Source: Magnetococcales bacterium
GTDB lineage: Bacteria; Pseudomonadota; Magnetococcia; Magnetococcales; UBA8363
DNA: 59,613 nt
Reading direction: 5' to 3'
Assembly: GCA_015228975.1 (NCBI GenBank)
Contig: JADGCN010000008.1
Location: forward strand, 1-59,613
The position numbers were made by a program, and so were the translations under genes. This document shows positions 16,880-46,616 of this stretch, piece by piece. The notes under the pieces were generated by a model. The model searched no databases. It had not been told where the DNA came from and saw nothing but the letters and a program-made list of their open reading frames with translations. How positions within the stretch are numbered: the stretch's first letter is position 1; the number at the start of each line of letters is the position of its first letter.

Positions 16880-18277
16880 TTAGAGTTTTTTCAGTTCTAC
16901 ACAAGCCATAAAACCGCCCCCTTCCGGGAAGCTGAATCGGATAGAGCCCTGGTGATCGCGAATGACCGCATCCGCGATGGCGAGACCGAGTCCCACCCCT
17001 CCGGTATCGGGGCTTCGGGAAGGTTCCAGGCGGAGAAATGGTTTGAAAACATGGTCCCACTCTTCCTTGGGGATACCGGGTCCGGGATCGCGGATGGCAA
17101 CGACCAATTTTTTCCCTGAGTCTTGTAACGAAACTTGGGCCGCCCCCCCGTACTGTACCGCATTATGGATGAGGTTCGTCAAGGCCCGTTTCATGGCCAG
17201 GGGGCGACACGAACAGGTTTGTTTGTCGGCTTCGACGAAGACAACCTGGTGTCCGGCATCGACCATATCGGCACAGATGGCGGAGAGGAGGCTGTTCATG
17301 TTGACGGGTTGTTTGGCTTCGCTACTCATGCTGTCCCGGGCAAACGTCAGGGTGGATGAAAGCATGAAGGCCATTTCATCCAGGGTGGCTATCATTTGTT
17401 TGCGCGTGGTTTCGTCGTCAACAAATTCGGCCAGCAGTTTGAGTTTGGTCAATGGGGTGCGCAGGTCGTGGGAAATGGCGGCGATCATCCGTAGCCGCTC
17501 TTCGACGAATTCGCGAAGTCGGCGATTCATGCGATTGAAGGCCCGGGCAACGGCAACGACTTCCGATGGTCCGTTCTCGGGGAGTTGAACGATGGAACGA
17601 TCCTGGCCTATGGTGTCGGCTGCGGCGACGATGCGTTTCAGGGGTTGGGTCATGTAGCCCGCAATGATCAGGGCGAATACCAAGGTGGCTCCCGTCATGA
17701 TGATTACCGACAGGGTGGCGTGGCGAAACAAAGGGACATGATTGGCCGCCAGGCGTGTTTCCAGCAGGAGTCGGTTTTCCCCGGGCAGATCGATCCAGGC
17801 ATGTAATTCTCGTTCCATGACGGTATCGTGCATCAACCGGATAATGTCCATTTCAAGATGGAACAGAAAGCGGTGGAACGATCCGTGGTGGTGGTTCCAA
17901 TCGGGCAGAGTGGCGTTGACCGCCGCAACGTGGGCCAGGGGGGCATGCAGCAGGGTTTCCAGGCGTTGTCGCAGGTGTTCATCGTTTTGTTCCGGGGGTG
18001 GGTTGAAATGCGGTCCTGATGCGGGAATGAGCCGACCATGCAGGTCATGGCGATTGATGGCGGACAAGACCGTCTCGTGCAGGGATGCCGGTGTTTCCAG
18101 GAGCAACCGCGTAATGACGGCCATCCGTGCCAGCAGTTCCTCTTCATTGGTGAGTACCGCAGGCTCCAATTTTTCGCTGGTGAATACCAGGATGCTCAGG
18201 ATATGGGAAAAAGTCAGGCCAACCAGTAAAATGACCAGTGTTCGTCCCGCCAAACTGATGGAAAACAAGGGCCTCAT
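16880..18277 (-). CDS. EnvZ/CpxA-type sensor histidine kinase
   Basis: About 465 aa. Two membrane segments (about residues 8-28 and 190-210) enclose a periplasmic sensor region of roughly 160 residues. HAMP, HisKA (ISHDLRTPLTKL) and HATPase (NLIHNAVQYGG, DPGPGIP, GVGLGLAIA) follow. It overlaps the response-regulator gene by ATGA, so the ATG at 18277 is used instead of an upstream in-frame start. The divergent metal efflux operon suggests that the pair senses a periplasmic metal and controls efflux, as CusS or CzcS do; the metal cannot be read from the sequence. Confidence 0.92.
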   Translation of the reverse strand: MRPLFSISLAGRTLVILLVGLTFSHILSILVFTSEKLEPAVLTNEEELLARMAVITRLLLETPASLHETVLSAINRHDLHGRLIPASGPHFNPPPEQNDEHLRQRLETLLHAPLAHVAAVNATLPDWNHHHGSFHRFLFHLEMDIIRLMHDTVMERELHAWIDLPGENRLLLETRLAANHVPLFRHATLSVIIMTGATLVFALIIAGYMTQPLKRIVAAADTIGQDRSIVQLPENGPSEVVAVARAFNRMNRRLREFVEERLRMIAAISHDLRTPLTKLKLLAEFVDDETTRKQMIATLDEMAFMLSSTLTFARDSMSSEAKQPVNMNSLLSAICADMVDAGHQVVFVEADKQTCSCRPLAMKRALTNLIHNAVQYGGAAQVSLQDSGKKLVVAIRDPGPGIPKEEWDHVFKPFLRLEPSRSPDTGGVGLGLAIADAVIRDHQGSIRFSFPEGGGFMACVELKKL

Positions 18278-18993
18278 TGCGAGTGGACATCGGCTGAGAA
18301 CAGGTACCCGCCTCCCCAAACCGTTTTGATGATCCGGGGATCTTTGGGGTTGGCTTCAATTTTGCGGCGCAAGCGCATGATTTGCGTATCAATACTGCGG
18401 TCGAATTTTTCGACGCGGGAACCATGGATCAGGTCCAGGAGTCGCTCTCGACTGAGTACCTTGCCGGGGTGACTGAGGAAGGCCAGAAGCAAATCAAACT
18501 CTCCGGAACTCAAAGGTTCCACCAATCCTTCGCTGTTGACCAGTTCTCGTCGATCCTGGTGTAATATCCAGTTGGCAAAGTGCATCCGCGAACCCATGGT
18601 GGGGGTTGCGAGTTGGTCATGATTGTGGCAACGCCGCAGAACTGCCTTGATGCGGGCCAGTAATTCGCGGGGATCGAACGGTTTGCTGATGTAATCATCG
18701 GCCCCCATCTCCAAACCGACGACCCGGTCGCTGTGTTCGCCCAAGGCGGTCAACATGATGACCGGAATGCTGGTGTGTTCCCGCAGTTTACGGCAAACGG
18801 ACAAGCCGTCTTCGCCAGGCAGCATGACATCCAGTATGACAAGGTCGATTGACTTCTTTTCCAGTATTGCTCGCATGGCGCGGGCATCAGCCACTCCTGT
18901 GGCGATCATACCGTGTTCATTCAGATATCGGACAACCAGTTCCTTGATTTCCCGGTTATCCTCCACCACCAGAATGCTCGGTTGTTTGTCCAC
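18274..18993 (-). CDS. OmpR-family response regulator
   Basis: About 239 aa, GTG start. Receiver domain with ILVVEDN, phosphoacceptor in VILDVMLPGEDG and the YISKPFDP lysine loop, then a winged-helix DNA-binding domain ending RRKIEANPKDPRIIKTVWGGGYLF. First gene of a two-gene unit with the kinase at 16880-18277. A palindromic array at 19010-19049, just upstream of its start and between it and the efflux operon, is the likely binding site, implying control of both directions. Confidence 0.93.
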   Translation of the reverse strand: MDKQPSILVVEDNREIKELVVRYLNEHGMIATGVADARAMRAILEKKSIDLVILDVMLPGEDGLSVCRKLREHTSIPVIMLTALGEHSDRVVGLEMGADDYISKPFDPRELLARIKAVLRRCHNHDQLATPTMGSRMHFANWILHQDRRELVNSEGLVEPLSSGEFDLLLAFLSHPGKVLSRERLLDLIHGSRVEKFDRSIDTQIMRLRRKIEANPKDPRIIKTVWGGGYLFSADVHSQ

Positions 18994-19105: not shown

Positions 19106-20656
19106 ATGGAAAACAAAGCAATGCCAATTGTCACCCTGTTCCTGGTGATGCTGGGTTTGGTCGTATTTCCGACTGGCTTGACCTGGGGACATGGTGGTGA
19201 GGATCATGGTGCCGGGGATCATGGTGCTGCCAAGGTTATACAGCAGCCAAGTGTTTCCTCTGGCCTGGGGTATGGGGCCCAGGGGGATCGATTTGAAGGG
19301 GTGGTTGTTCCCACGGAAGGCCCATTGACGTGGCTCTATCTGTCTGACGTGGCCAGCAACGCCGCTGTGGCCCAGGCGACGGTCGAAGTGGAGGCGACTG
19401 GCAATCCGGGCTGGACGGACACATGGAAACCAACGCCTGTGGCGGGGGTGTATCGTTTGGAACGCTTGTTGTCTTCGCAGGAGGCGGTTACGTTAACCAT
19501 TACCGTGACCCATGCCGATGGTTCCGACTTGCTCCTGATCGCCGTGCCGTCTCACAACCATCCACCAGCCACCTCCCCGGAATCCCCAGAGTCGAAGTAT
19601 CAGCACTTGTTCACTCCGGTGGGTGTGGTTTTCGTGGTCGTTTTTTGCATGGTCATGTTGTTAAGACGGAAAAAGGCGGCTGCGATGCTGGTCGGGTTGC
19701 TGCTCATGGCGACGGCGGGTCATCTCCATGCCCATGGCGGTGAGGATCACAAAGCGCCATCGCAGCAACCATCGATGATTGTGCCCGGGTCGGGCCGTGA
19801 GGTTGCCTTACCCAAGTCGAGTCAATTTTTGTTGGATGTACGGACTGCGGCGGCAGCGAGCCGTGAAGTGATCCAGACCATTCGCCTGGTGGGACGGGTG
19901 ATAGCCGATCCCGCTTTTCATGTGCGCGTCCATCCGCAATTACCTTCCCGCATTGGTTACGATCCGTTGTTTCCGCCGCCCCGATCGGGACAATGGATCA
20001 AACGGGGGCAACCATTGGCGGTTCTGGATCCGTTGTTGTCACTCGGGGAGAAGGCGGGGCAGCGTCAATCCTTGTTGAAAGGGGAGCAGATGGAATTCTC
20101 GGTTGGCCGGGAAATGGTTCTGGCCCCCATCGACGGGCAAATGACCGATGTCCACATTGTTCCGGGAGACGTGGTGACGCAAAACGATGTGTTGGCGGAA
20201 ATCATTGATCCCGCGCACCTGTGGATTGAAGCGGTTTTGTACGATATTTCCGTGGCGGAGCGGATCATCGGGGGAACGGCGGCGACGCGGCAGATCCCGG
20301 GTAAACATTTTCCGCTTGTCTTGATGGGGATCAGTCCCAAGGTGAATCCGGAAAATCTAGGTTTGCACCTGCAATTTGCCTTGGGTGACAACACTGCACC
20401 GGTCAAAGTTGGAATGCCCATGGATGTGTATGCCCATACCGGTGCTGAATTGTTTGGCATTGCGATTCCACGGGTGGCGCTCCTTGATCAAGGGGGGATC
20501 CCCATGGTTTGGGTCAAAACGGCCCCGGAAAGGTTCGTCAGTCGTCCGGTGGCTCTGGGACGAAAAACGGCGGAATGGGTGGAAGTGTTGCAGGGGATTG
20601 GACCCGCTGAAAAAGTTGTGGTCCAGGGTCACAACCAGCTCAATGCCATGCGGTGA
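19106..20656 (+). CDS. RND metal-efflux periplasmic adaptor with extra N-terminal His-rich membrane-anchored domain
   Basis: About 516 aa. Residues 1-28 are a signal or anchor, followed by HGGEDHGAGDHG and a beta-rich periplasmic domain (about 45-160), then a membrane segment (about 170-188) ending RRKK. Immediately after comes a second signal-like stretch starting at M194 (MLVGLLLMATAGHLHA) and another HGGEDH, followed by an ordinary CzcB/CusB-type adaptor with barrel-sandwich and beta-barrel regions. The gene thus looks like two proteins joined: a His-rich anchored domain and the adaptor. An internal start at 19685 could release the adaptor alone. It directly precedes the pump (6-base gap), so it is its first adaptor; a second adaptor lies at 25497. 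Confidence 0.83.
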   Translation: MENKAMPIVTLFLVMLGLVVFPTGLTWGHGGEDHGAGDHGAAKVIQQPSVSSGLGYGAQGDRFEGVVVPTEGPLTWLYLSDVASNAAVAQATVEVEATGNPGWTDTWKPTPVAGVYRLERLLSSQEAVTLTITVTHADGSDLLLIAVPSHNHPPATSPESPESKYQHLFTPVGVVFVVVFCMVMLLRRKKAAAMLVGLLLMATAGHLHAHGGEDHKAPSQQPSMIVPGSGREVALPKSSQFLLDVRTAAAASREVIQTIRLVGRVIADPAFHVRVHPQLPSRIGYDPLFPPPRSGQWIKRGQPLAVLDPLLSLGEKAGQRQSLLKGEQMEFSVGREMVLAPIDGQMTDVHIVPGDVVTQNDVLAEIIDPAHLWIEAVLYDISVAERIIGGTAATRQIPGKHFPLVLMGISPKVNPENLGLHLQFALGDNTAPVKVGMPMDVYAHTGAELFGIAIPRVALLDQGGIPMVWVKTAPERFVSRPVALGRKTAEWVEVLQGIGPAEKVVVQGHNQLNAMR

Positions 20657-20662
20657 CCAGAC

Positions 20663-23600
20663 ATGCCCGGTCTCTTGGACGCGATTATTCGGTTGGCCTT
20701 GCAGCAACGCTTGTTTGTTGTTGCGGCGTCGATCCTGCTGTTGGTTTACGGTGGTTGGGTGGTTGCGGGTTTGCCGGTTGATATTTTTCCTGACCTGAAT
20801 CGTCCAACGGTGACCATCATGACCGAAGCCCCCGGGTTGGCACCCGAGGAGGTGGAATCCCTGGTGACCATGCGTATTGAGTCGGTGTTGAATGGCATGC
20901 CGGGGGTTTCCCGTCTGCGCAGCAATTCCGGTGTCGGATTGTCCATTGTATTTGTTGAGTTTTCATGGGGAACCGATGTGTATCGTAACCGGCAGTTGGT
21001 TGCGGAAAAATTGGCGACCACCGTTGAATTTTTGCCGCGTGACGTTGTGCCGGTCATGGGTCCGGTGAGTTCCCTCATGGGTGAAATCATGCTGATCGGC
21101 CTCAGAAGCGACAAGGGTACAACTTCACCCATGGCATTGCGTTCCATCGCCGATTGGACCTTGCGCCCGCAATTGTTGGGCATGGCCGGGGTGGCCCAGG
21201 TGATTCCCATCGGTGGCGAGGTGAAACAATACCAGGTACTCGTCGATCCGACGCGCATGATCGCCTTGGGGCTCTCATTTGAAGCCTTGGAACAATCTCT
21301 CACCAGTTTTGCCAAAAACAGCACGGGCGGCTTTCTGTCGCAACACGGGAGGGAGTTTCTCATTCGCAATCTGGGTCAGACGACCGATTTGGAAGATTTG
21401 CAACAAACGGTGGTGGCCGTCAACAAAGGCGAATCGATTACGTTGGGTCAAGTGGCTGATGTACGGTTCGGTGCCGGGGTCAAACGGGGCGATGCCAGCA
21501 TCAATGGTCAGGCGGCGGTCATCCTGGCGGTGCAAAAACAGCCCGGGGCCGATACCGTGACCTTGACGAGGCGTCTGGAGGGTGTTTTAGCGACCATCCA
21601 GCGCACGTTGCCCGATGATGTGAAAGTGGATCCGATTCTTTTCAAACAAGCCGATTTTATCGAACGTGCCATTGCCAATGTCGAGGAGGCGTTGCGTGAT
21701 GGGGCTGTATTGGTGGCGGTGATCTTGTTCTTATTCCTCATGAATGTGCGGACAACGTTCATCAGTCTGACGGCCATTCCTTTGTCATTGGTGGTGACAG
21801 CCCTTATTTTTCAATGGTTTGGATTATCCATCAACACCATGACCCTGGGGGGATTGGCGGTGGCCATCGGTGAACTGGTGGATGATGCCGTGGTCGATGT
21901 GGAAAATGTATTTCGGCGGTTGCGGGAAAATGCGCATTCCGCGGCCCCCCGTCCAACCCTGGATGTGGTTTGGCAGGCCTCCAGTGAGGTCAGAAACGCC
22001 ATCGTCTATGCCACCATCATCGTCCTGCTGGTTTTTGTACCCGTTTTCGCTTTGTCGGGCATTGAAGGGCGACTTTTTGCCCCGTTGGGCATCGCCTATA
22101 TCGTTTCCATTCTGACCTCTCTCCTGGTTTCCCTGACCGTGACACCTGTACTTTGTTTTTTGTTGCTGCCGCGCATCACCAGGATGACCCGGGGTGATTC
22201 CTGGCTGGTGCGGCACCTCAAGGCGATGGATCGCCACGTATTGTACTGGTCCTTTGGACACGCCCGGCTGTTGATTGGTGTCACGTTGGTATTGGTGGTT
22301 GCGGCGGCGCTTTCGGTTCCTTGGCTCGGGCGCACGTTCCTGCCCTCCTTCAATGAGGGAACCGTGACGATCAGCGTGATCATGGCTCCGGGCACATCCC
22401 TGGAGGAGTCCAATCGCATTGGCACCATTGCCGAGGGTTTGTTGCATCGAACCCCGGAAGTTATTTCCACGGGACGCCGCACCGGGCGTGCGGAATTGGA
22501 TGAACATGCCGAAGGGGTGCATTTTTCCGAAATAGACGTGGATCTCAGAGCTTCTGGACGCAAGCGCGAGGCGATTCTCGGGGAGATACGGGGCAATCTG
22601 GGTCTGATCCCCGGAGTCAGTATCAATGTCGGGCAACCGATTTCCCATCGGTTGGATCATTTGTTGTCCGGGGTCCGGGCGGAGATTGCTGTTAAAATTT
22701 TTGGTAACGATTTGGATGAGTTGCGTGCCAAAGCCGAAGAAGTCAGACAACACATGGCGACCGTGCCCGGGGTGACCGACCTGCAGGTGGAAAAACAGGT
22801 TCTCATTCCCCAGTTGCAAATTCGCCTCGACCGGCAAGAGGCCCGCAAATACGGGCTTTCCCTGAACCAATTGACCGGGATTCTGCAAACGGCATTGAGC
22901 GGCAAGGTGGTGTCTCAAGTTCTTGAAGGGCAGCAGAGCTATGACGTGGTGTTGCGTTTGGCCGAGGCTTGGCGTGCCGAAACCGGGGATTTTCATCAAA
23001 TCCTTATCGATACCCCGGCGGGCAAGATTCCCCTGGAATTGGTGGCTGAGGTGGTGGAAACCACGGGACCCAACATGATCAACCGGGATGACCGGCTGCG
23101 ACGCATCGTCGTATTGGCCAACACCCAGGGGCGTGATCTCGCTGCGGTGGTCGACGACATCCAGGGGCGCGTGGCCCGGGTGACCTTGCCGACGGGGTAT
23201 CATATTTCGTTTGAAGGGCAGTTTCGCAGCCAGCAGGAGGCGACCCGCACCATGGCCTTGCTCTCCCTTATTTCTTTGTCGGGTATTTTTCTGGTCCTTT
23301 ACAGTCATTTCCGTTCGTCGGTCTTGACGATGATCATCATGGCCAATATCCCCATGGCCCTGGTCGGCAGCGTTTTGGCCCTGTGGTTGACGCAAACCCC
23401 ATTGTCGGTAGCCAGTTTGGTCGGCTTCATCACCCTGACCGGCATCGCGGCCAGGAACGGCATCCTCAAGGTAACCCATTATCTCCACCTGATGCGGGTG
23501 GAAGGTGAGCCGTTTGGACCTGAAATGGTGGTGCGTGGCTCGTTGGAACGCTTGACTCCGGTACTGATGACGGCCCTGGTGGCGGCCCTGGCTCTGATTC

Positions 23601-23764
23601 CATTGATTGTCGATGCCGGGGCGGCGGGCAAGGAGATTTTACACCCGGTGGCGGTGGTGATCTTTGGTGGTTTGCTGTCATCAACCTTGCTGGATACTGT
23701 GGTGACTCCTGTGGTGTTTTTACAAATGGGTAATCGGTTTAAAGTTATGGAGCAAAGGCGATAA
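20663..23764 (+). CDS. CzcA/CusA-type heavy-metal RND efflux pump
   Basis: About 1033 aa, full length for an HME-RND pump. Two repeats of membrane segments (TM1 near residues 13-32; TM2-6 about 340-500; TM7 about 535; TM8-12 about 860-1020) with two large periplasmic loops. The TM4 proton-relay motif is GELVDDAVVDVEN with D407, D408, D412 and E414, the layout used to recognise metal rather than drug pumps. It exports a metal cation across the cell envelope together with the adaptors and the TolC-like protein encoded downstream. Motifs do not settle Zn/Co/Cd versus Cu/Ag. Confidence 0.93.
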   Translation: MPGLLDAIIRLALQQRLFVVAASILLLVYGGWVVAGLPVDIFPDLNRPTVTIMTEAPGLAPEEVESLVTMRIESVLNGMPGVSRLRSNSGVGLSIVFVEFSWGTDVYRNRQLVAEKLATTVEFLPRDVVPVMGPVSSLMGEIMLIGLRSDKGTTSPMALRSIADWTLRPQLLGMAGVAQVIPIGGEVKQYQVLVDPTRMIALGLSFEALEQSLTSFAKNSTGGFLSQHGREFLIRNLGQTTDLEDLQQTVVAVNKGESITLGQVADVRFGAGVKRGDASINGQAAVILAVQKQPGADTVTLTRRLEGVLATIQRTLPDDVKVDPILFKQADFIERAIANVEEALRDGAVLVAVILFLFLMNVRTTFISLTAIPLSLVVTALIFQWFGLSINTMTLGGLAVAIGELVDDAVVDVENVFRRLRENAHSAAPRPTLDVVWQASSEVRNAIVYATIIVLLVFVPVFALSGIEGRLFAPLGIAYIVSILTSLLVSLTVTPVLCFLLLPRITRMTRGDSWLVRHLKAMDRHVLYWSFGHARLLIGVTLVLVVAAALSVPWLGRTFLPSFNEGTVTISVIMAPGTSLEESNRIGTIAEGLLHRTPEVISTGRRTGRAELDEHAEGVHFSEIDVDLRASGRKREAILGEIRGNLGLIPGVSINVGQPISHRLDHLLSGVRAEIAVKIFGNDLDELRAKAEEVRQHMATVPGVTDLQVEKQVLIPQLQIRLDRQEARKYGLSLNQLTGILQTALSGKVVSQVLEGQQSYDVVLRLAEAWRAETGDFHQILIDTPAGKIPLELVAEVVETTGPNMINRDDRLRRIVVLANTQGRDLAAVVDDIQGRVARVTLPTGYHISFEGQFRSQQEATRTMALLSLISLSGIFLVLYSHFRSSVLTMIIMANIPMALVGSVLALWLTQTPLSVASLVGFITLTGIAARNGILKVTHYLHLMRVEGEPFGPEMVVRGSLERLTPVLMTALVAALALIPLIVDAGAAGKEILHPVAVVIFGGLLSSTLLDTVVTPVVFLQMGNRFKVMEQRR

Positions 23765-23801: not shown

Positions 23802-24182
23802 ATGCTTCACACTGGAAAAATAATCTTAGCGCTGGTGGGGTTTCTTTCCTCCTGGTCCGCCTGGGCACATGGTTCGTTAGTGCCCCAACATGGAGGACGT
23901 GTGGTGGAAACCGAGGGCGTTCGACTGGAATTGGTGGCCAAAGACACCAAGGTCGATCTTTATGTGACTGACCACGATGATAAGCCGATAACGGTCACAA
24001 GGGCTTCGGCCAAAGTTGTCATTTTGGCGGGGGGGAAGAAACTGGAGGCTGCCTTACAGGGGGCGGATGGAAACCTGCTTTCCGGTACGACCCAGACGCC
24101 GGTTGGTGATGACTTTTCGGCGGTGATCACTGTTTCAGGTTTGGCAAAACCGATTTCCGCCCGTTTGCCAGCGCAACATTGA
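23802..24182 (+). CDS. Small periplasmic protein of the metal-efflux operon
   Basis: About 126 aa. Signal peptide ending SWSAWA, then HGSLVPQHGGRVVE and a short beta-rich domain with DLYVTDHDDKPI. Similar small secreted proteins occur between pump and outer-membrane genes of Czc-like operons and may bind the metal before efflux; the two N-terminal histidines support this weakly. Ribosome site AGGAGA. No named family is recognised with certainty. Confidence 0.75.
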   Translation: MLHTGKIILALVGFLSSWSAWAHGSLVPQHGGRVVETEGVRLELVAKDTKVDLYVTDHDDKPITVTRASAKVVILAGGKKLEAALQGADGNLLSGTTQTPVGDDFSAVITVSGLAKPISARLPAQH

Positions 24183-24201: not shown

Positions 24202-25500
24202 ATGCTGTGTCCTGAGAGATCAGGTTGTCACGTATTCGGGATCGTCTTGTTTTTGGTGACGGGACTCGGGTTGTCCGGTGTTGCGGAAGCCGCGGAGTCG
24301 CATGCGCATGGGCAGGTGGTGGGCGCTTCGGTGGCCGATCTCCTCACGCTGGCCAAAGAAATGAACCCGGAGTTGTTGGCCTCGCGCTTGGACGCCGATG
24401 CGGCCGCTGCCCGGGTGGCAGGGGCGGGGGTGTTGCCAAATCCCAAATTGCAGATGACCCTGGAGGATGTGAGCAAAAACCGTGATGGTTTGCCCGGACG
24501 GGTGGCGACGGAAAAATTTCTCATGCAACAAGAGTTGCCCTGGTGGGGAAAACGGGATTCACAACGGACCATTGCCGAGGCGGAAAATCGCGAGGCGTTG
24601 GGCAAGCTGGCGGATGTCGAGGCGGACATCGCCCTGCGTATCAAAACGGCCTATGCCGACTACCATCGGGTCCACCTCACCATGGATCAGACGGAGGAAT
24701 GGATCCAGATCATGCGCACTCTGGTTCGCATGGCGCAATTTCGTTACGCGCAAAACAGGGCTATGCAATCGGAAGTGACAACGGCGGAAGCGGAACGGGG
24801 GGCGCTGGAAGTGGACAAGGTGCGCCTGGGCAAAGAGCGCAGTCGCATTCGCGCACGCTTGAATGCCTTGGTCAATCGTGCGCCGGATGCGCCAATCGTG
24901 GAACATCCTGAATTGCGTCCGCTGCCAGCCGCGGAAATTTTGGATTATGCCAAATTGTTGGAACGTGCGTTGAGGGACAATCCCGTGCAGAGCATGGTTG
25001 CGGCACGGGCCGATGCTGTCGATGAGAATCAACGGCTGGTTGAGAAAGGGTGGTATCCCGATATCACCCTCGGGATGGGGTTGGTGCAACGCCGCAATCC
25101 CGAGGAAAAGGATAGCTTTGAAGCCCAGGTGGAATTGACACTACCCGTGCCATGGGACGGGTACCGGGCGCGGCAATGGGAGGCCGTCGCCCGAAACGGG
25201 GCGGTGCAGGCACAATTGCAAGCGGAACACGTGCGTATCGCATCGACACTCAAAGAAAATCTGTTAAGCCTGGAAGAGGCTCGGGAAGTGGCGCAAGTGA
25301 CCGAGAATACGTTGTTGCCGCAGGCGCGCATGGCGTTGCAATCCGCCTTGAAAAGTTACCAAACCGGATCCACGGAGTCGGTTGCGGTATTGGATGCAGC
25401 TCAAAGATTGAAAAAATTTCAAATCGATTGGCTCAAGGCTCAATTTGAGGCCCAAATCCGTCTGGCAGAAGTGGAACGGTTGATCGGGGGTGATTTATGA
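24202..25500 (+). CDS. TolC-family outer-membrane efflux protein (CzcC-like)
   Basis: About 432 aa. N-terminal signal sequence, then the long alpha-helical repeats of outer-membrane factors (LADVEADIALRIKTAYADYHRV in the first hairpin and a matching second half, about 270-430). HAHGQV after the signal is a small His-rich start. It is the outer-membrane channel of the efflux complex. Its stop overlaps the start of the second adaptor (ATGA at 25497). Confidence 0.9.
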   Translation: MLCPERSGCHVFGIVLFLVTGLGLSGVAEAAESHAHGQVVGASVADLLTLAKEMNPELLASRLDADAAAARVAGAGVLPNPKLQMTLEDVSKNRDGLPGRVATEKFLMQQELPWWGKRDSQRTIAEAENREALGKLADVEADIALRIKTAYADYHRVHLTMDQTEEWIQIMRTLVRMAQFRYAQNRAMQSEVTTAEAERGALEVDKVRLGKERSRIRARLNALVNRAPDAPIVEHPELRPLPAAEILDYAKLLERALRDNPVQSMVAARADAVDENQRLVEKGWYPDITLGMGLVQRRNPEEKDSFEAQVELTLPVPWDGYRARQWEAVARNGAVQAQLQAEHVRIASTLKENLLSLEEAREVAQVTENTLLPQARMALQSALKSYQTGSTESVAVLDAAQRLKKFQIDWLKAQFEAQIRLAEVERLIGGDL

Positions 25501-26597
25501 AGTGCGCCAAGCTTGTTTCCATGATGGCATGCGTGCTGGCCATGATGGTGGTCGATACGGCGACGGCTGAAGTGGCTGATAAAGGGGATGGGTTGATTCG
25601 TATCGATGTGGACAAGATTCAACAATGGGGGGTCAAGAGCGAAGGGGTCGTTCGGCGATCCTTGGCCCGTTCCATCCGAGCTGTGGGCACTGTCCAGGTG
25701 GATGAGCGCAGGCTCCAGATCATCAATCTGAAGTATGAAGCCTGGATTGAAAAGCTCCATGCCAACACCACCGGGCAGGTGGTGCAGAAAGGGCAATCGT
25801 TGATGGAGGTCTATAGCCCGGCGTTGATCTTGACGCAAAGTGAATATTTGGCCGCGGCCAGGTCGGAGCAGTCGCTTCACGGGGCCGATGCCGAGACCCG
25901 GGCTACGGCCCATGAGCTGACTGAAAGTGCGTTGATGCGTTTGCGCAACTGGGATATTTCCGAAAATCAGATCAAACGCTTGCGTAACACGGGTCAATTT
26001 GGGCGGACCATGAGTGTCATTTCCCCGGTGAGCGGGATCATTTTGGAAAAAGCTGCTATTCAGGGGATGCGCGTCCTGCCGGGTGAGATGCTGTATCGTG
26101 TTGCCGATTTGACAACTGTTTGGGTGGTGGCGGATGTGTACGAACAGGATGTGGGTTTGATACGTGAAGGAGTGCCCGCCGAGGTTGTTTTAAAGGCGAT
26201 TCCCAACAAGACATTCCACGGCAAAGTGACCTTGATTTATCCCACGCTGTCCGCTGAGACCCGCACGGTTCAGGTGCGTATTGAACTGGCCAATCCTGAT
26301 GGTTTGTTGCGGCCCGCTCTGTATGCCGTTGTGCATCTTTCGGCGCCAACTACCGGTGCCATGGTTCTTGCCATTCCCGACTCGGCACTCCTGGATCACG
26401 GTACCCGCCAGATTGTCCTGGTGGAACACGGTGCCGGGGTATTGGAACCACGTTCGGTAGTGGCAGGAAACAAGGGTGATGGATTTATCGAGGTATTGGA
26501 AGGAGTGAAAGAGGGAGAAAAGGTTGTGGTGCAGGTGCGATCTTTGTTTGCAGCGGATGCCAATCTACGCTCCCTCCTGGGCCGTTCCATCCAGTGA
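25497..26597 (+). CDS. Second RND efflux periplasmic adaptor (CusB-like)
   Basis: About 366 aa with a signal peptide (ending near TATA). Beta-barrel and lipoyl-like segments are recognisable: WIEKLHANTTGQVVQKGQ, a helical hairpin with SEYLAAARSEQ, SPVSGIILEK, then VWVVADVYEQDVGLIREG, all of the CusB/HlyD family. Compared with the adaptor at 19106 it lacks the extra anchored domain. Two adaptors per pump may assemble as mixed hexamers or serve two pumps; this is inference. Confidence 0.9.
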   Translation: MKCAKLVSMMACVLAMMVVDTATAEVADKGDGLIRIDVDKIQQWGVKSEGVVRRSLARSIRAVGTVQVDERRLQIINLKYEAWIEKLHANTTGQVVQKGQSLMEVYSPALILTQSEYLAAARSEQSLHGADAETRATAHELTESALMRLRNWDISENQIKRLRNTGQFGRTMSVISPVSGIILEKAAIQGMRVLPGEMLYRVADLTTVWVVADVYEQDVGLIREGVPAEVVLKAIPNKTFHGKVTLIYPTLSAETRTVQVRIELANPDGLLRPALYAVVHLSAPTTGAMVLAIPDSALLDHGTRQIVLVEHGAGVLEPRSVVAGNKGDGFIEVLEGVKEGEKVVVQVRSLFAADANLRSLLGRSIQ

Positions 26598-26634: not shown

Positions 26635-28389
26635 ATGACCATCACGCAAAGCAGTTCATGGAAACGCACTGGTTTCATTGCATTGATTGTTTTATGGGTT
26701 TCCATGGTTACGGCGCCCGGTACCTTTGCCCAGAGCGCGCACGAACATGAAAGTCACGGGATCGTCACACCCGCCCCGAGCGCGCACGATCATGGCACAT
26801 CGCAGGGCGATCATGGGAGTCATGCGACGACAGGACATGGGGATCATGGTGCCGGGGGCGGTCATCAGCATCCGGGCTTGCCGATGGTCTATGTCTGGAG
26901 TGTCGTGGCCATCATGGTTGTCATGATGCTCTGGGGTGTATGGGCCGGAGCGCGCAAGGAACGTCCACAAGCCACGTACAATCTGGCACGAATGCCCCTG
27001 TTTGGCAGGGTCGTTCGTTGGCTCAATCGTTCCCCCTGGCCATTGGTAGGGCTTAAAATGATTGCCCTGCTCGTTTTTTTTGGGGTCGTTACCGCAGGAT
27101 TGGTGGGTACGTCATTACCGGAGCGTAATCTGGCCACTTTTTTTGTCTGGAACCTGTGGTGGCCTTTGGTGGTGGTATCGGTATTTTTTATCGGAACGGC
27201 TTGGTGTGCCATTTGCCCCTGGGATACCCTGGCAACCTGGTTGGTACGGCGTCGGCTTTGGCAGCGGGTTGTGCCGCCTCCAGGTTTGAATTTGAAGGTT
27301 CCACGGCTGTTACGGAGTGTTTGGCCGGCATTGGTCATGTTCATGGGGTTGACTTGGCTTGAGTTGGGTATTGGTGTCACGGGTATTCCCAAGGCAACGG
27401 CTTTGATGGCTTTATTGATGGTGATATTGGCCCTGGTTTCCTTGTTGGTGTTTGAGCGGAAGGCTTTTTGCCGCTATTTTTGCCCTGTGGGGCGGACGTT
27501 GGGCTTTTACTCACGTCTGGCGCCCATCGGGGTGCGGGCGCAGGAGCAGGACCTGTGTACCAACTGCACAACCATGGAATGTTACAATGGATCGGCCACG
27601 ATTGAACCCTGTCCCACCCATCTGACGATTGGCCGTTTTTCCCAAAATACCTTTTGTATCTCGTGTGGCCAATGTGCTTTGAGTTGTCCATACGGCAATG
27701 TTTCCTGGCGCTTGCGCCCCCCGGGAGCGGAGGCGTTGGCCGAGGCGCGACCCATGTGGGATGGGGCCTGGTTCATGTTGGCATTGCTGGGGATCACCAG
27801 TTTTCATGGCGTGACCATGATGCCAATTTGGGGCACATGGATGGCGGGTATGGCGCAATGGCTCGGGGAAACGGGCAAGCCCATCATCAGTTTCACCCTG
27901 GGCATGGTGGGAGGTTTTTTGTTTCCGGTGGTGGTGTATGCCCTGGCTATCGGGGTGACGCGCATGCTGATGCCGAAGGCGTTGGGCTATCGTCGTCTGT
28001 TTGTGACCTTGCCCTTTTCGACATTGCCGTTGGCATTTGTTTACCATCTTTCCCATAATTTGGATCATCTTTATCGTGAGACGGGAGGTGCCTGGGAGGT
28101 GTTGGCCAATCCGTTGGGAACGGGAATGGCGGCATTGAGTGCGGCGGAGAGGGCGGCGCGTATGGCCGGAAGCGGGGGTGGGGAACAGGTGCTGTTCCTG
28201 GCACAGACGGGTCTCATGGCCTTGGGGGTGGGATTGGCGGTGGTGATTTTGCGGCACCGGGGATGGAGCTTGCAGGCGGGCGGGGTACGTTTGGCGGGCT
28301 GGCGGCTCATTCCCATGCTCTCTTTCATTGCTGCTATGAGCGCGGCCAACCTGTGGTTGATGTCACAAAGCATGGGCATGCGGTTTTAA
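26635..28389 (+). CDS. His-rich polytopic 4Fe-4S protein (CcoG/NapH-like, putative metal reductase)
   Basis: About 584 aa. Signal-like segment (residues 10-32), then a periplasmic His-rich stretch (about 36-80) with more than ten histidines in HEHESHG, HDHGTSQGDHGSH and GHGDHGAGGGHQHPG. About ten membrane segments follow, and a cytoplasmic ferredoxin-like insert with ICPW, CRYFCPVGR, CTNCTTMECY...EPCP and CISCGQCALSCPYG. This resembles the CcoG/FixG/NapH polyferredoxins; CcoG is known to reduce Cu(II). A metal reductase feeding the efflux pump would fit the histidines and the operon, but that is inference. Ribosome site GGAGA, 37 bases after the adaptor. Confidence 0.82.
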   Translation: MTITQSSSWKRTGFIALIVLWVSMVTAPGTFAQSAHEHESHGIVTPAPSAHDHGTSQGDHGSHATTGHGDHGAGGGHQHPGLPMVYVWSVVAIMVVMMLWGVWAGARKERPQATYNLARMPLFGRVVRWLNRSPWPLVGLKMIALLVFFGVVTAGLVGTSLPERNLATFFVWNLWWPLVVVSVFFIGTAWCAICPWDTLATWLVRRRLWQRVVPPPGLNLKVPRLLRSVWPALVMFMGLTWLELGIGVTGIPKATALMALLMVILALVSLLVFERKAFCRYFCPVGRTLGFYSRLAPIGVRAQEQDLCTNCTTMECYNGSATIEPCPTHLTIGRFSQNTFCISCGQCALSCPYGNVSWRLRPPGAEALAEARPMWDGAWFMLALLGITSFHGVTMMPIWGTWMAGMAQWLGETGKPIISFTLGMVGGFLFPVVVYALAIGVTRMLMPKALGYRRLFVTLPFSTLPLAFVYHLSHNLDHLYRETGGAWEVLANPLGTGMAALSAAERAARMAGSGGGEQVLFLAQTGLMALGVGLAVVILRHRGWSLQAGGVRLAGWRLIPMLSFIAAMSAANLWLMSQSMGMRF

Positions 28390-28843: not shown

Positions 28844-29290
28844 CTATTTTTTGTCTGGCTTGGCTGCGTCTGGTTTGGCTGCTGCCGGGGCTGCGGGTGC
28901 TGCCGCTGGGGCTGCTGGGGTGGCGGGTTTGGCTGCTGCCGGGGCACCGGCTGCTGGAGCTGCTGCTGGAGCTGCTGCTGGAGCTGCTGCTGGAGCTGCC
29001 GCTGGAGCTGCCGCACCAGCGGGTTTGCCGGCTGCCGGGGCACCACTCGTCGGAGGGGCGTTGTCCGGGATCGCGTCCTGACCACCATAGGTGTCTACTG
29101 TTCCAGCCAATTCCGCCATACACTTGCTGATGTAGCCTTCCATCTTGTCGGCGGCAATGCCATCTTCCTGCGCCCATTTTTGGCAGGTACGCTTGTCAAT
29201 TTCTTGATCTTCCTGGGGGGCAGCGGCCATCGCGAGTGTGGACACGAATAAGCTGGAGACTACCAATAGTCCCATTTTTTTGATCATCAT
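28844..29290 (-). CDS. Secreted Ala/Pro-rich low-complexity protein
   Basis: About 148 aa. Signal peptide (KKMGLLVVSSLFVSTLAMA), a short folded part with two cysteines (about residues 30-65, CQKWAQEDGIAADKMEGYISKC), then a tail of APAAAP-type repeats (about 85-148) ending DAAKPDKK. The repeats are encoded by a GCTGCTGGAGCTG-like tract on the plus strand. The two cysteines could form a disulfide. Ribosome site AGGAGAGG. The tail resembles cell-wall or envelope linkers; no function is known. Confidence 0.75.
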   Translation of the reverse strand: MMIKKMGLLVVSSLFVSTLAMAAAPQEDQEIDKRTCQKWAQEDGIAADKMEGYISKCMAELAGTVDTYGGQDAIPDNAPPTSGAPAAGKPAGAAAPAAAPAAAPAAAPAAAPAAGAPAAAKPATPAAPAAAPAAPAAAKPDAAKPDKK

Positions 29291-29677
29291 GTTTTTTCCT
29301 CTCCTGTAATGCCAATAGTGGCGTGTTCCATCCCTATTGTGTTCAGTATGGGGTCCTATGCCGCTTGGCATGGAAGATTGCCGGTGGATGGGATACGGCG
29401 GTGGAATGCATCATAATTCTTTTAAAGGCCTTGCGCAATTATTGCCTCTTAGTGAGGAATGGGTGTGTCGCAGGCCGTGTCTTCCACGGGTATGGGGATC
29501 GGGTGCGGAATGGGGAATCAACGAACCGACCATTTTTTTACGTTGTCCCTTGGGGTGGGGAACGGTATTTTCAGCGGATACCTTATGAAAGATTGGCAGG
29601 ATATTGTTTCCAGCGACAGCCTGTCTGTTGCTCGGGCATGTGGAAGGACCGCTTGTCTCTTTAAAGAGGAGAGGGTC
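29291..29677. other. Intergenic region of 387 bases
   Basis: Divergent spacer between the Ala/Pro-rich gene and the repeat-containing gene at 29678. It holds a weak inverted repeat (CAATAG about 29312 and CTATTG about 29335) and the ribosome site of the downstream gene. An open frame runs in from 29459 ahead of the chosen ATG but has no ribosome site. Nothing else is recognised. Confidence 0.5.
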
Positions 29678-30927: not shown

Positions 30928-32196
30928 ATGAGTACTGAAAGAATGCCGTTGAACACAACGATGCTGAATGAGTTGGAGTCTGGTCCGTGGCCAAGTTTTG
31001 TCACCGATCTGAAGGAATATTCCAAGAAGCGGCCCGTTGTTGCGCAACTTTTGAATCAATTGGAAGAATCCTACCAGAATAAATGGAATTATTGGCAGGG
31101 CAAGATCCTCAATGCCCCCGGTTACGGTGGCGGCATCATCGCCCGGGTGTCCGACAAAGCGAGCAAATATCCCGGTCTGGCCAATTTCCACACCGTGCGC
31201 GTCATTGAACCGCCGGGTTGGGTGTACAGCACCGATGCCCTGCGCGATCTGGCCGACATCGCCGAGAAGAATGGCGCCGGCATCCTGCAATTCCATGGCA
31301 TGTCGGGTGACGTCCTCCTGTTGGGTTTTGACGATGCCGGCTCCCTGCAATGCGCCGAAGACTTGATGAGCAATGGTTGGGACATCGGCGGTTCCGGTGC
31401 CGCCATGCGGACCCTGCAATGCTGCGTTGGTCAGGCCCGCTGCGAAATGGCCTGCTACGACACCATGAAGATGACCAAGCATATCACGGACACCTTCATC
31501 CACTATCTGCACCGCCCTGAGTTCGTCTACAAGTTCAAGTTTAAACTTTCCGGCTGTCCCAACGATTGCGCCAATGCCATCGTCCGCTCTGACATGCCCA
31601 TCATCGGTACCTGGCGGGGTGACATGCAGGTCAACCAAGCCAAGGTTGCCGAGTTCATCGAACAAAAGGGGATGGAGTACCTGATCGATAACGTCCTTAC
31701 CCGGTGTCCCACCCGCTGCTTGTCGGTTCGCGGCAAGGAATTGGTTGTGGACAACAGCGATTGCGTGCGTTGCATGCACTGTATCAATGTCATGCACAAG
31801 GCGCTCAAGCCCGGTAAAGATCGTGGGGCCACCATCCTGGTCGGCGGCAAGCGGACCCTCAAGATCGGTGACACCATGGGATCGGTTCTGGTGCCGTTCG
31901 TGAAGCTTGAAACCGACGAGGATCGGAGCAATTTCACCGACTTTGTCGAGAAGGTGTGGGAATTCTGGAATGACAATGGTATGGACCACGAGCGGATCGG
32001 TGAATTCATCTACCGTATCGGTATGTTGACTTTCCTTAAAGGTGTTGAGATCGAGCCTGATCCGCGGATGATCAGCCGTCCCCGCACCACGTCGTACATC
32101 AAGTTTGAAGAGCTGGGGCCAAGCAGGTTTGAAGGTGAACGGGTGCAAAATCCCCCCGTTTGGAATCGTGAATCGGAGTCTCGGGAAAGCCTGTAG
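30928..32196 (+). CDS. dsrA: Dissimilatory sulfite reductase alpha subunit DsrA (oxidative type)
   Basis: About 422 aa, normal length. Sirohaem/[4Fe-4S] ligands lie in CCVGQARCEMAC and SGCPNDCANA, and a ferredoxin-like insert has CVRCMHC after CPTRC. The alpha2beta2 enzyme with DsrB acts on sulfite and sulfide; with DsrL it usually works in the oxidative direction, turning stored or bound sulfur to sulfite in the cytoplasm. Preceded by 270 bases without a gene and a modest ribosome site (GAGGAG). The codon pattern (many C-ending codons, unusually regular) differs from flanking genes and suggests high expression. Confidence 0.97.
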   Translation: MSTERMPLNTTMLNELESGPWPSFVTDLKEYSKKRPVVAQLLNQLEESYQNKWNYWQGKILNAPGYGGGIIARVSDKASKYPGLANFHTVRVIEPPGWVYSTDALRDLADIAEKNGAGILQFHGMSGDVLLLGFDDAGSLQCAEDLMSNGWDIGGSGAAMRTLQCCVGQARCEMACYDTMKMTKHITDTFIHYLHRPEFVYKFKFKLSGCPNDCANAIVRSDMPIIGTWRGDMQVNQAKVAEFIEQKGMEYLIDNVLTRCPTRCLSVRGKELVVDNSDCVRCMHCINVMHKALKPGKDRGATILVGGKRTLKIGDTMGSVLVPFVKLETDEDRSNFTDFVEKVWEFWNDNGMDHERIGEFIYRIGMLTFLKGVEIEPDPRMISRPRTTSYIKFEELGPSRFEGERVQNPPVWNRESESRESL

Positions 32197-32251
32197 GATT
32201 CTCGTCTGTCGCCAACACGGTAAGGTTCAATATAAAGGAGTCAAGAGCGTT

Positions 32252-33325
32252 ATGAGTCAACCCACGTTGGCGCCCCGGGACCAGGGCGCCCCCGATTACA
32301 CCAAGTATTTGCACCCACTCATGGCCAAGAATTATGGCAAGTGGGACTACCATGAAAGGTTGCGCCCAGGCGTACTGGTCCATGTAGCCGAAAATGGTGA
32401 CAAGCTCTATACCGTCCGGGCCGGTTCACCCCGGACCATGAGTGCTGATACGGTTCGCAAGGTGTGTGCGATCGCCGACAAGTATTGCGAAGGCCATCTG
32501 CGTTTCACCACCCGGTCGAACATTGAGTTTTTGGTGGGCAAGAAAGAAAACCTGGATCCCCTGATTCAAGCCGTCGAGAAGGATTTGGGCTGGCCTCTGG
32601 GTGGCACCGGACCTTCGGTGTCCAATATTTCCCATACCCAAGGTTGGTTGCATTGTAACCTTCCAGGGTCCGATGCGGCGGGTTCGGTGAAGGCGTTGAT
32701 GGATGATCTCATCCACGACTTCAAGCATGAAGAACTCCCCAACCGGGTCCATATTTCCTCGTCGTGCTGCCAGATCAACTGCGCCAGCCACGGTGACATC
32801 TCCATCATTGTGCAACACCATCATCCACCTCGCATCAACCACAAAAACATGCAGATTTGTGAGTTGCCCAAGGTGGTTGCCATCTGCCCCGCTGCGGCTA
32901 TCCGCCCAGCGGTGGTTGATGGTGTGGAAACGGTGGAAGTGGTGGAAGAAAAATGCATGTATTGCGGCGCGTGCCACGGGCAATGTCCCAGCATGGAAAT
33001 CCGGGATGCCCAAACCGATACCCTCTCCATTTGGGTCGGTGGCAAGATGTCCAACGCCCGCAGCGCACCGACCTTCATGAAACTGGCTGTCTGGGGTATT
33101 GCCAACAATCCCCCGCGTTGGCCTGAAGTGTCGGCTGCGGTCAAGACAATCCTGAAGGCCTATAAGGAGGGTGGCAAACCCTGGGAGCGTCTTGGGGAGT
33201 GGATCGAAAGGATCGGTTGGCAACGATTCTTTGAAAAGACAGGCTTTCCGTTTACCCGCTATCATATCGATGATAGCCCGGAAGCCCTTTCTACTCTCAA
33301 CAGATCGGCCATGCTCCGACTCTGA
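32252..33325 (+). CDS. dsrB: Dissimilatory sulfite reductase beta subunit DsrB
   Basis: About 357 aa. Conserved cofactor ligands are visible in SSCCQINCASHG and the ferredoxin motif CMYCGACHGQCP. The ribosome site AAAGGAG precedes the ATG at 32252; an earlier in-frame start overlapping dsrA is rejected. Encoded 55 bases after dsrA. Together with DsrA it forms the sirohaem enzyme of the Dsr pathway. Confidence 0.97.
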   Translation: MSQPTLAPRDQGAPDYTKYLHPLMAKNYGKWDYHERLRPGVLVHVAENGDKLYTVRAGSPRTMSADTVRKVCAIADKYCEGHLRFTTRSNIEFLVGKKENLDPLIQAVEKDLGWPLGGTGPSVSNISHTQGWLHCNLPGSDAAGSVKALMDDLIHDFKHEELPNRVHISSSCCQINCASHGDISIIVQHHHPPRINHKNMQICELPKVVAICPAAAIRPAVVDGVETVEVVEEKCMYCGACHGQCPSMEIRDAQTDTLSIWVGGKMSNARSAPTFMKLAVWGIANNPPRWPEVSAAVKTILKAYKEGGKPWERLGEWIERIGWQRFFEKTGFPFTRYHIDDSPEALSTLNRSAMLRL

Positions 33326-33366
33326 TGAAAGTTTGGTAACCTGTTCACTCCGGGAGGAATCCTTTA

Positions 33367-35244
33367 ATGCTAGAGTCGACTATACTGACACAGATTTCCA
33401 GGGAGGATCTGGAAGCCAAGCTCGGGCGTGGTGTTGTTGAAGAAATTGTTGTTCGTAATGGCACTAGTTGGAAGTGTCCCACCTATGTGCAAAGAATTCC
33501 TCCCTGCCGGGATGCGTGTCCCAGCAGTGAGGACATTCGTGGCTATCTGACGACCATTGCCCAGGCTGGAATGCGCAAGGTGAGCCACGATGTCGCTTTG
33601 GATGAAGCGTGGGAACTCTTGACCGACAAAAATCCGCTGCCATCCACCCACGGGCGCATTTGTCCGCATCCGTGTGAATCAGGATGTAATCGGCAGCACT
33701 TGCCGGATGGTTCCGTAGCCATCAACAACATGGAACGGTTTATTGGCGACCATGGTCTTAACCGCAAATTGAAGTATAAAAAATTGACCGACAAAGTGTC
33801 GGGCAAAAAAGTTGCGGTGGTGGGGTCTGGACCGGCCGGGCTATCTTGTGCTTACCAACTGGCACGCAGAGGGCACAAGGTAACCATCTTTGAAGCGTTT
33901 GCGAAGACCGGCGGCATGCTCAGGTATGGCATTCCTTCCTATCGTCTTCCGGACGATATCCTTGATGCAGAAGTACAAAACATCCTCGATCTGGGTATTG
34001 AATTGAAGTGTAATACCCGTATCGGTCGGGACATTTCTTTCGACGACCTGAGAAAGCAGTTTGACGCCGTCTTTTTGGGCCTGGGTGCCCACAAAGGGAG
34101 CGTCATGAACATTCCCGGGGAAAATTCCGCGAATGTGTTTACTGCGGCCAGCTTCCTTAATCGGGTCAACTCCGGGGCCAAGGTGGAAATCGGTTCCCAG
34201 GTGATTGTCATCGGTGGTGGTGACAGCGCCATGGACGCCGCACGTGTTTCATTGCGGTTACAGGCGGAATTGGATGCCGCCGATGCCTCGGGGGATGCCA
34301 AAGCCTATGATCAGGCTTGGGAAGAAGCCGACAAAAAAGCGTTGCATGATGAAGAGACCGTTTCCATTGAAAAAACTGCCCTGGATTCGGCCCGTTCGGC
34401 CATCAGGGTGTCGAAGTATACCAAAGTGACCGTGTTGTATCGTCGGACCAAGGATGAAATGCCGGCGATCGCCAAGGACGTGGTGGAAGCAGAACACGAA
34501 GGGATTCATTTTGAATTGTTGACCGCTCCCGTGGAGATTGTCACCGAAGGTGGGCGGGCAACGGGTGTCAAGTGCATTCGCATGGAACTGGGTGCCCCGG
34601 ATCAATCGGGACGGCGGCGTCCAGTCCCAGTCAAGGGGTCTGAATTCACCATTGCCTGTGATACCATCATCATGGGCATTGGTCAGGTTCCCGAGTTGGA
34701 AAAAGGGATGGAAGCCTTGGCCGATAAATCGGGATGGCTGAACATTGACAAAACCTTTACCACGGGGACCCCGGGGGTGTTTGCAGGAGGGGATGTCATC
34801 GGTTTGGGCATTTCCACCCGCTCCGTGGGTCATGGACGTCTTGCGGCACGGGCCATTCATGCGTTTCTGATGGGCGAAAACATGAATCTGGTTCACAAAG
34901 CCCGTCCGGTCAAGCATACGGAGATGCGTTTGGGTTTCTACCCGGCGATGCCACGGAATGAAGAAAAGCAGATTCCGGTGGACGAGGCGGTTACAACCTT
35001 CAAGGAAACAACGCAGACCATCCCCTTTGAGCAGGCCTTGTCTGAATCCAAACGGTGCATGAGTTGTGGATTGTGCTTTGTGTGCGATCAGTGCCGTATC
35101 TATTGTCCCAGGGAGGCGATTGAGCGTGATTTCAAACGTCCCCAGGGCAAAGTGATGCATACTGACTATACCCGTTGTAATGGGTGTCATGTGTGTCATC
35201 AGGCCTGTCCCTGCGGTTATATTCAGATGGGGATGGGGTTGTAG
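33367..35244 (+). CDS. dsrL: DsrL, NAD(P)H-linked iron-sulfur flavoprotein of the Dsr pathway
   Basis: About 625 aa. N-terminal Fe-S part with CPTYVQRIPPCRDAC and CPHPCESGC (GltB-small-subunit-like), an FAD fold with VAVVGSGPAGLSC, an NAD(P)-binding fold with VIVIGGGDSAMDAA, and a C-terminal ferredoxin with CMSCGLCFVCDQCRIYC and CNGCHVCHQAC. DsrL moves electrons from the DsrAB reaction to NAD(P) in sulfur oxidisers and is required for that direction. Ribosome site GGGAGG. Ends before a terminator; its last 56 codons reappear at 36088-36253. Confidence 0.96.
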   Translation: MLESTILTQISREDLEAKLGRGVVEEIVVRNGTSWKCPTYVQRIPPCRDACPSSEDIRGYLTTIAQAGMRKVSHDVALDEAWELLTDKNPLPSTHGRICPHPCESGCNRQHLPDGSVAINNMERFIGDHGLNRKLKYKKLTDKVSGKKVAVVGSGPAGLSCAYQLARRGHKVTIFEAFAKTGGMLRYGIPSYRLPDDILDAEVQNILDLGIELKCNTRIGRDISFDDLRKQFDAVFLGLGAHKGSVMNIPGENSANVFTAASFLNRVNSGAKVEIGSQVIVIGGGDSAMDAARVSLRLQAELDAADASGDAKAYDQAWEEADKKALHDEETVSIEKTALDSARSAIRVSKYTKVTVLYRRTKDEMPAIAKDVVEAEHEGIHFELLTAPVEIVTEGGRATGVKCIRMELGAPDQSGRRRPVPVKGSEFTIACDTIIMGIGQVPELEKGMEALADKSGWLNIDKTFTTGTPGVFAGGDVIGLGISTRSVGHGRLAARAIHAFLMGENMNLVHKARPVKHTEMRLGFYPAMPRNEEKQIPVDEAVTTFKETTQTIPFEQALSESKRCMSCGLCFVCDQCRIYCPREAIERDFKRPQGKVMHTDYTRCNGCHVCHQACPCGYIQMGMGL

Positions 35245-38624: not shown

Positions 38625-38629
38625 CGGGT

Positions 38630-40165: not shown

Positions 40166-40180
40166 GGAGTTTATTGCTCT

Positions 40181-45017: not shown

Positions 45018-45028
45018 GATCGGCCACC

Positions 45029-46495: not shown

Positions 46496-46616
46496 GGTCA
46501 GGTTTCTTTCAGCACGTTATTGGTCGCACGGGGGAAAGATCCAGACTACCAAAACCCGAAGCCGCCGCAAAGGCATTACATTCAATAACGCCCTGAGCAA
46601 CACTTCGATAGTGCGG

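Follow-up and report, generated by a model that had tools for sequence, protein, structure and literature searches.

A polyferredoxin with a histidine-rich tail at the end of a heavy-metal RND efflux operon in Magnetococcales

The window, a 59,613-nucleotide stretch of contig JADGCN010000008.1, comes from a Magnetococcales MAG of 3.75 Mb that is 75.9% complete. It contains a tightly packed heavy-metal RND operon whose last gene encodes a membrane polyferredoxin with a histidine tail (PFd; Table 1). The gaps from the first periplasmic adaptor (MFP1) through the RND permease (RND1), a 126-residue exported protein, the outer-membrane channel (OEP), and the second adaptor (MFP2) to PFd measure 6, 37, 19, -4, and 37 bases, and the last contains no terminator-like site (the whole region has 10 such sites, and shuffled sequences average 13.7). 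The 126-residue protein matches no family in Pfam or NCBIfam.

Table 1. Genes of the operon and sequence features of PFd, in positions of the window
Feature	Position	Strand	Basis or remark
Sensor histidine kinase, divergent	16880..18319	-	Pfam
OmpR-type response regulator, divergent	18274..18993	-	Pfam
MFP1, periplasmic adaptor	19106..20656	+	HlyD_3, 42.7 bits; start chosen by inspection
RND1, heavy-metal RND permease with NieA-type His motifs	20663..23764	+	TIGR00914, 793.9 bits (cut-off 701.45)
126-aa exported protein	23802..24182	+	Kept in operon of relatives
OEP, outer-membrane efflux channel	24202..25500	+	PF02321, 85.8 bits
MFP2, CusB-like periplasmic adaptor	25497..26597	+	HlyD_D23, 260 bits; CusB model, 147 bits (cut-off 390)
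PFd, membrane polyferredoxin with His tail	26635..28389	+	584-aa ORF, ATG start
PFd signal-peptide-like N-terminus, residues 1-33	26635..26733	+	Hydrophobic core 14-32; cleavage site by eye
PFd His tract, residues 34-79, 11 His, predicted periplasmic	26734..26871	+	
PFd CxxCP (C191, C194), cytoplasmic end of TM3	27205..27219	+	32/32 family and 16/16 outgroup rows
PFd CxxxCP (C279, C283), cytoplasmic end of TM5	27469..27486	+	32/32 family and 16/16 outgroup rows
PFd eight Cys, C308 to C351, cytoplasmic loop	27556..27687	+	32/32 family rows
PFd invariant membrane His H391, TM6, periplasmic half	27805..27807	+	32/32 family rows
PFd invariant membrane His H471, H474, H478, TM8, periplasmic half	28045..28068	+	32/32 family rows

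An earlier note on this DNA had placed a polyferredoxin with a periplasmic tract of more than 10 histidines exactly here, and both the reading frame and the tract are confirmed, the latter as a prediction with respect to its side of the membrane. Fer4_5 is the sole Pfam match of PFd above its cut-off, and hydropathy predicts about 10 transmembrane helices in addition to the signal-peptide-like helix. All 12 cysteines fall in four motifs (C191xxC194P, C279xxxC283P, C308/C311/C316/C326P, and C341xxCxxCxxxC351P), and the eight from C308 to C351, which are also complete in aligned E. coli NapH, a Magnetococcales NapH-like protein, YccM, the CcoG of the same genome, and the C224 protein, would presumably bind two [4Fe-4S] clusters. 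Lysine and arginine are concentrated in the cytoplasmic loops (30, as opposed to 7 in periplasmic loops), and the same positive-inside bias recurs in all 32 family members (23 to 33 versus 3 to 9), which places the histidine tract in the periplasm and the cysteine motifs in the cytoplasm by prediction. An AlphaFold2 model built from 6 sequences reached a pLDDT of 38.7, too low for the model to be of use, and comparison with PDB sequences returned only ferredoxin-like stretches or chance matches.

The binomial chance of at least 11 histidines in 46 residues is 8.7e-8 at the 2.99% histidine frequency of predicted window proteins, and about 1e-3 once 16,090 such stretches are allowed for; these figures are approximate because the rough gene calling over the window took in some doubtful genes. 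The only other gene of the window to reach 11 histidines encodes DabA (41730-45017). Between 7 and 14 histidines lie within the 60 residues before TM1 in all 13 members of the clade that includes PFd (the His clade), as opposed to at least 7 in only 2 of the 19 family members outside it (L064 and L069), with counts taken from stop-to-stop frames in which some N-termini are approximate.

The proposal that PFd resembles CcoG, a Cu(II) reductase, did not hold as an identification: PFd gave no match to the CcoG model TIGR02745 at E values up to 0.1 (cut-off 316.7 bits), and the genome encodes a true CcoG on another contig (489.9 bits). Its best curated model is NapH/MauN, at 39.1 bits and far under the cut-off of 213.05, and the comparison with NosR, made through the NosR model only, gave 19 bits. 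By its sequence, PFd is a member of a four-His subfamily of the NapH/CcoG superfamily without an existing name, which we define by H391, H471, H474, H478, and the 12 cysteines, present together in all 32 rows. The four membrane histidines are missing from the aligned rows of E. coli NapH, YccM, the CcoG of the same genome, and the FtrD-like proteins, and the Magnetococcales NapH-like row has a histidine at 471 only. H474 is common to Deinococcus, cyanobacterial, and haloarchaeal rows, the Deinococcus row having H471 and H478 as well, and the cyanobacterial rows H391.

All 12 cysteines of PFd align with those of NapH/MauN, and CcoG/RdxA/FixG likewise has 12 aligned cysteines and a cytoplasmic-side polyferredoxin in the membrane, supporting a cytoplasmic-side electron relay in PFd. 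Unlike NapH/MauN, PFd adds the histidine tract, extra transmembrane helices, and the four histidines, and Pfam and NCBIfam profiles detect no nap genes in the window operon. CcoG, which reduces Cu(II) and raises copper tolerance according to the review PMC7558416, ends in a periplasmic Ig-like domain by the same account, whereas the C-terminus of PFd consists of further predicted transmembrane helices with no Ig-like domain found by Pfam; YccM homologues also lack this domain, according to that review (PMC7558416). The FtrD-like polyferredoxins share a NapH-like core and distant sequence similarity with PFd but occur in an iron-import context, and FtrD is described in PMC11966278 as assigned to no known redox family. 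Two further distant homologues of about 900 residues lie on cyanobacterial plasmids (L045, 4663-8354; L048, 4681-8318), each directly followed by a cysteine synthase gene and one annotated with a cyclic-nucleotide-binding domain.

The 32 family members form one supported group (99/96), which divides broadly into three. Part A comprises eight stand-alone proteins, five of which (G023, G025, G134, G415, and G441) lie in NapA-like Mo-enzyme operons by gene layout, with the Mo enzyme identified by profile in two of the five. Part B comprises 11 proteins in two branches. One, of five, includes a copy on contig C111 next to a P1B-type heavy-metal ATPase whose best subfamily above cut-off is the cadmium type; in the other, of six, five proteins, the C15 copy among them, carry CxxCH motifs of cytochrome c in their N-terminal portion. 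Part C consists of the 13 His-tailed proteins including PFd, with mixed support (82/99). The five named relatives on genome contigs are all Magnetococcales, and among 397 genomes of the phylum, a set that contains members of the order, near full-length members outside the order occur in only two (43 to 45% identity); targeted searches around these two added two more. Within the order, the single-contig genome G038 (4.7 Mb) gave no match to PFd at E values up to 1e-10. Remote matches (L078-L080; 25 to 26% identity by tblastn, 28 to 29% in another search) are not included in the family, and the tree omits a partial copy in G047, which has one in-frame TGA and lies on a 3.2-kb contig. G170 and G231 are in the tree and absent from the His/Cys table, the CcoG of the window genome is in the table and absent from the tree, and the C187 and C201 proteins of that genome are in neither.

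Several members of the family have features of their own. The Mo-enzyme operons at L116, L126, L127, L072, and L073 each include a four-His polyferredoxin, and most of them also encode NapH-like proteins and exported proteins of HHVxGRPSY type; the two Mo enzymes scored reached 333 to 351 bits against a NapA cut-off of 904 and may not be nitrate reductases. The window genome itself has a family polyferredoxin fused to three cytochrome c domains (contig C15; L051, 4181-6877), and its third member, on C111 (L052, 6015-10374), has an N-terminal domain without a known family and is divergent from the P1B ATPase.

The RND1 operon adjoins the PFd gene in 7 of the 13 His-clade loci. In six genomes of one genus, the window genome and G041 to G045, the PFd gene is at the tail of the operon, and in G036, which belongs to another family, it heads the operon, with 2 bases between it and MFP1. 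The occurrence of both positions in one operon argues for a functional tie over simple descent. In G029, orthologues of the two-component regulators of the operon lie one gene away, and the contig ends on the other side; in G007, G037, G028, and G024, the PFd gene lies away from the RND1 operon; and in G015, the contig of 3.2 kb is too short to judge. G028, which is 98% complete, has neither RND1 nor CusA. In G046, the contig with RND1 ends about 110 bases past MFP2, so an assembly gap could explain the lack of PFd in this genome. Outside the His clade, searches with the operon proteins found the RND1 operon in 0 of 15 loci, two of them on contigs under 6 kb. The earlier note had counted NapH-like cluster cysteines and relatives lacking any metal operon as arguments against its reading; relatives outside the clade indeed lack the RND operon in the 15 loci searched, 7 of the 13 His-clade loci have it, and the cysteine set decides nothing because it is identical in NapH, YccM, and CcoG. 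A polyferredoxin in an RND metal-efflux operon was not found in the literature, which was covered at the level of titles and abstracts, with subscription papers mostly outside this scope.

Across 48 genomes of the order, the His clade co-occurs with RND1, matched at an identity of at least 73% (11 of 13 genomes with the clade versus 8 of 35 without; P = 1.7e-4, Fisher exact test), and is negatively associated with CusA, taken as any match at E values up to 1e-200 (4 of 13 versus 26 of 35; P = 0.0085, Fisher exact test). There is no association with DUF411/CopG in these genomes (4 of 13 versus 18 of 35; P = 0.33). Among RND1-positive genomes, CusA is present in 4 of 11 with the His clade and 7 of 8 without it (P = 0.059). 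G047 was counted as lacking the clade; by arithmetic, counting it as present gives 12 of 14 versus 7 of 34 for RND1 and 5 of 14 versus 25 of 34 for CusA. A tree-aware analysis based on rpoB, over the cut-off in 30 of the 48 genomes and leaving out the window genome, G015, G024, G029, G036, and G037, yielded 4 independent pairs and no power. Since the genomes are related, many are incomplete, and the independent pairs number four, the co-occurrence figures are suggestive only.

The position of PFd after CzcA/CusA-type genes, as the earlier note had put it, stands in that RND1 passes the CusA/CzcA family cut-off and the CusB-like adaptor immediately precedes PFd, but RND1 differs from both CusA and CzcA at metal-binding positions. 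It has S/F/H in place of the Cu(I) triad of E. coli CusA (M573/M623/M672), and it has alanine at CusA position 399, where CzcA of C. metallidurans has aspartate, in a TM4 motif that reads AIGELVDDAVV. RND1 carries instead the NieA motifs HAEGVH (position 615) and HRLDH (662), and HAEGxH occurs exactly once in each of 16 related loci. Both motifs, as well as a conserved exported protein, are shared with the NieA-type RND operon of Cupriavidus neocaledonicus, for which no polyferredoxin is mentioned in the section of PMC7060636 that was covered; nickel efflux is only proposed for this motif family (HME5/"class 6") in that paper. Among the 25 plasmid matches to RND1 listed, the neighborhoods of four were inspected. 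Homologues lie near CusA, cytochrome c, and DUF411 in Magnetospirillum XM-1, near a multicopper oxidase and cytochrome c in Peteryoungia, near FixH-family and DUF305 proteins in Defluviicoccus, and near no such genes in Variovorax. Copper genes thus neighbor RND1 in 2 of the 4, with cytochrome c close downstream, and the plasmid contexts are mixed, leaning to copper.

The operons of sister genomes provide a second view of the metal. In G043 and G044, a CusA (RND2) sits between MFP2 and PFd; it is 54 to 55% identical to E. coli CusA and retains the M/M/M triad. A DUF411/CopG gene with a CxCC motif occupies the same interval in G043 and G042. A remnant of CusA, its last 73 residues, persists on contig C43 of G042 (L057, 2825-3037) between the CusB-like adaptor and DUF411. 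No CusA was found in the window genome, G041, or G045. Because CusA is present, decayed, or absent among these sisters, MFP2 appears to be an adaptor whose CusA has been lost.

We tentatively favor, at slightly below an even chance, the reading that PFd transfers electrons across the membrane within a metal-efflux island and most likely reduces periplasmic Cu(II). Two [4Fe-4S] clusters on the cytoplasmic side would exchange electrons with a donor, either cytoplasmic or a quinol, and the electrons would then cross the membrane to the site formed by the four membrane histidines at the periplasmic face. The histidine tract and this site together form a plausible metal path, judging from the residues, in which the tract would gather metal and the electrons would meet it at the four histidines. 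Periplasmic Cu(II), the presumed substrate, would be reduced either directly or via a copper redox partner such as CopG/DUF411, and the reduced copper could then be managed by efflux parts or copper chaperones.

Counted in favor of this copper reduction are the tightly packed RND operon and its retention with PFd at two positions, the triad-intact CusA and the CopG/DUF411 of sister operons, the invariance of the 12 cysteines and of the four periplasm-side histidines, the histidine tract throughout the clade, the co-occurrence with RND1, the copper genes on two plasmids, and the precedent of CcoG. Counted against it are the negative association with CusA and the lack of one with DUF411, the RND1 motifs proposed for nickel (which is not redox-active in this setting), the four loci off the operon, and the state of G028. 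The suggestion that the metal undergoes redox processing before export may hold in a weaker form; a role for PFd solely in making Cu(I) for CusA clashes with the absence of CusA from the window genome and with the negative association, and is weakened accordingly.

The occurrence of other clades with Mo enzymes or cytochromes indicates that the core function of PFd need not be metal redox. PFd might instead act as a NapH-like relay that hands electrons to another redox partner in the periplasm, whether CopG, a reductase, or a cytochrome; it would then sit in the operon because of shared regulation, and its histidine tract would only buffer metal. This alternative, which we consider rather unlikely and yet the first to be weighed after copper reduction, agrees with NapH/MauN as the best curated model and with relatives in NapA-like operons or fused to three cytochrome c domains. 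It accounts poorly for a dense histidine tract that is universal in the clade and rare elsewhere, and for a clade that goes with RND1; moreover, Pfam and NCBIfam profiles detect no periplasmic reductase or cytochrome gene in the window operon.

An improbable alternative reverses the chemistry, with PFd oxidizing periplasmic Cu(I), alone or with CopG, passing the electrons to the quinone pool, and RND1 exporting Cu(II) where CusA has been lost. PFd would then be a valence switch, an O2-independent counterpart of the multicopper oxidase CueO, and RND1 would take over from CusA. Such a switch fits the His-clade genomes with RND1 and without CusA (7 of 13), the decay of CusA in G042, and the proposal, described in PMC7558416, that CopG oxidizes Cu(I) and acts without oxygen. 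Speaking against it are a substrate metal of RND1 that is itself putative, a CusA contrast that reaches only P = 0.059 among RND1-positive genomes, and a tree-aware test without power. Cu(I) oxidation is also thermodynamically awkward for low-potential clusters. Least probable of all is a role in iron redox chemistry comparable to that of FtrD in the ferrous-iron system FtrABCD. In Azospirillum, G169, and G393, genes of FTR1 and P19-like type adjoin distant homologues (25.8 to 29.1% identity in the G169 and G393 rows), but the five aligned FtrD-like rows are missing all four histidines and half of the eight cluster cysteines, and the neighbors of PFd are exporters, with no FTR1 or P19 gene seen near it by Pfam and NCBIfam profiles.

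If PFd does reduce copper in the envelope, its presence in a metal-pump operon suggests that some bacteria alter the redox state of copper-like metals there during efflux. How bacteria set the redox state of envelope copper, above all without oxygen, is poorly known, and a further subfamily of polyferredoxins, the second, that has a membrane histidine site of its own and a metal-binding tail and is genetically tied to an RND exporter would connect electron transfer with metal export in a way that can be tested.

The surroundings of the operon include several other genes. On the minus strand at 28844-29371 is a secreted-looking protein of 175 residues that has a long repeat tail rich in Ala and Pro; residues 1 to 108 of the protein are identical in the sister genome G041. 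Downstream of PFd, at 30928-35244 on the plus strand, are two sulphite-reductase-type genes with NIR_SIR domains and a flavoprotein with Fe-S domains, which we take to be dsrA, dsrB, and dsrL. An operon on the minus strand at 37134-48629 encodes DabA, an inorganic carbon transporter with a His-rich N-terminus, together with several Mrp/Nuo-type proton-antiporter subunits and, after these, an arginine-decarboxylase-type gene.
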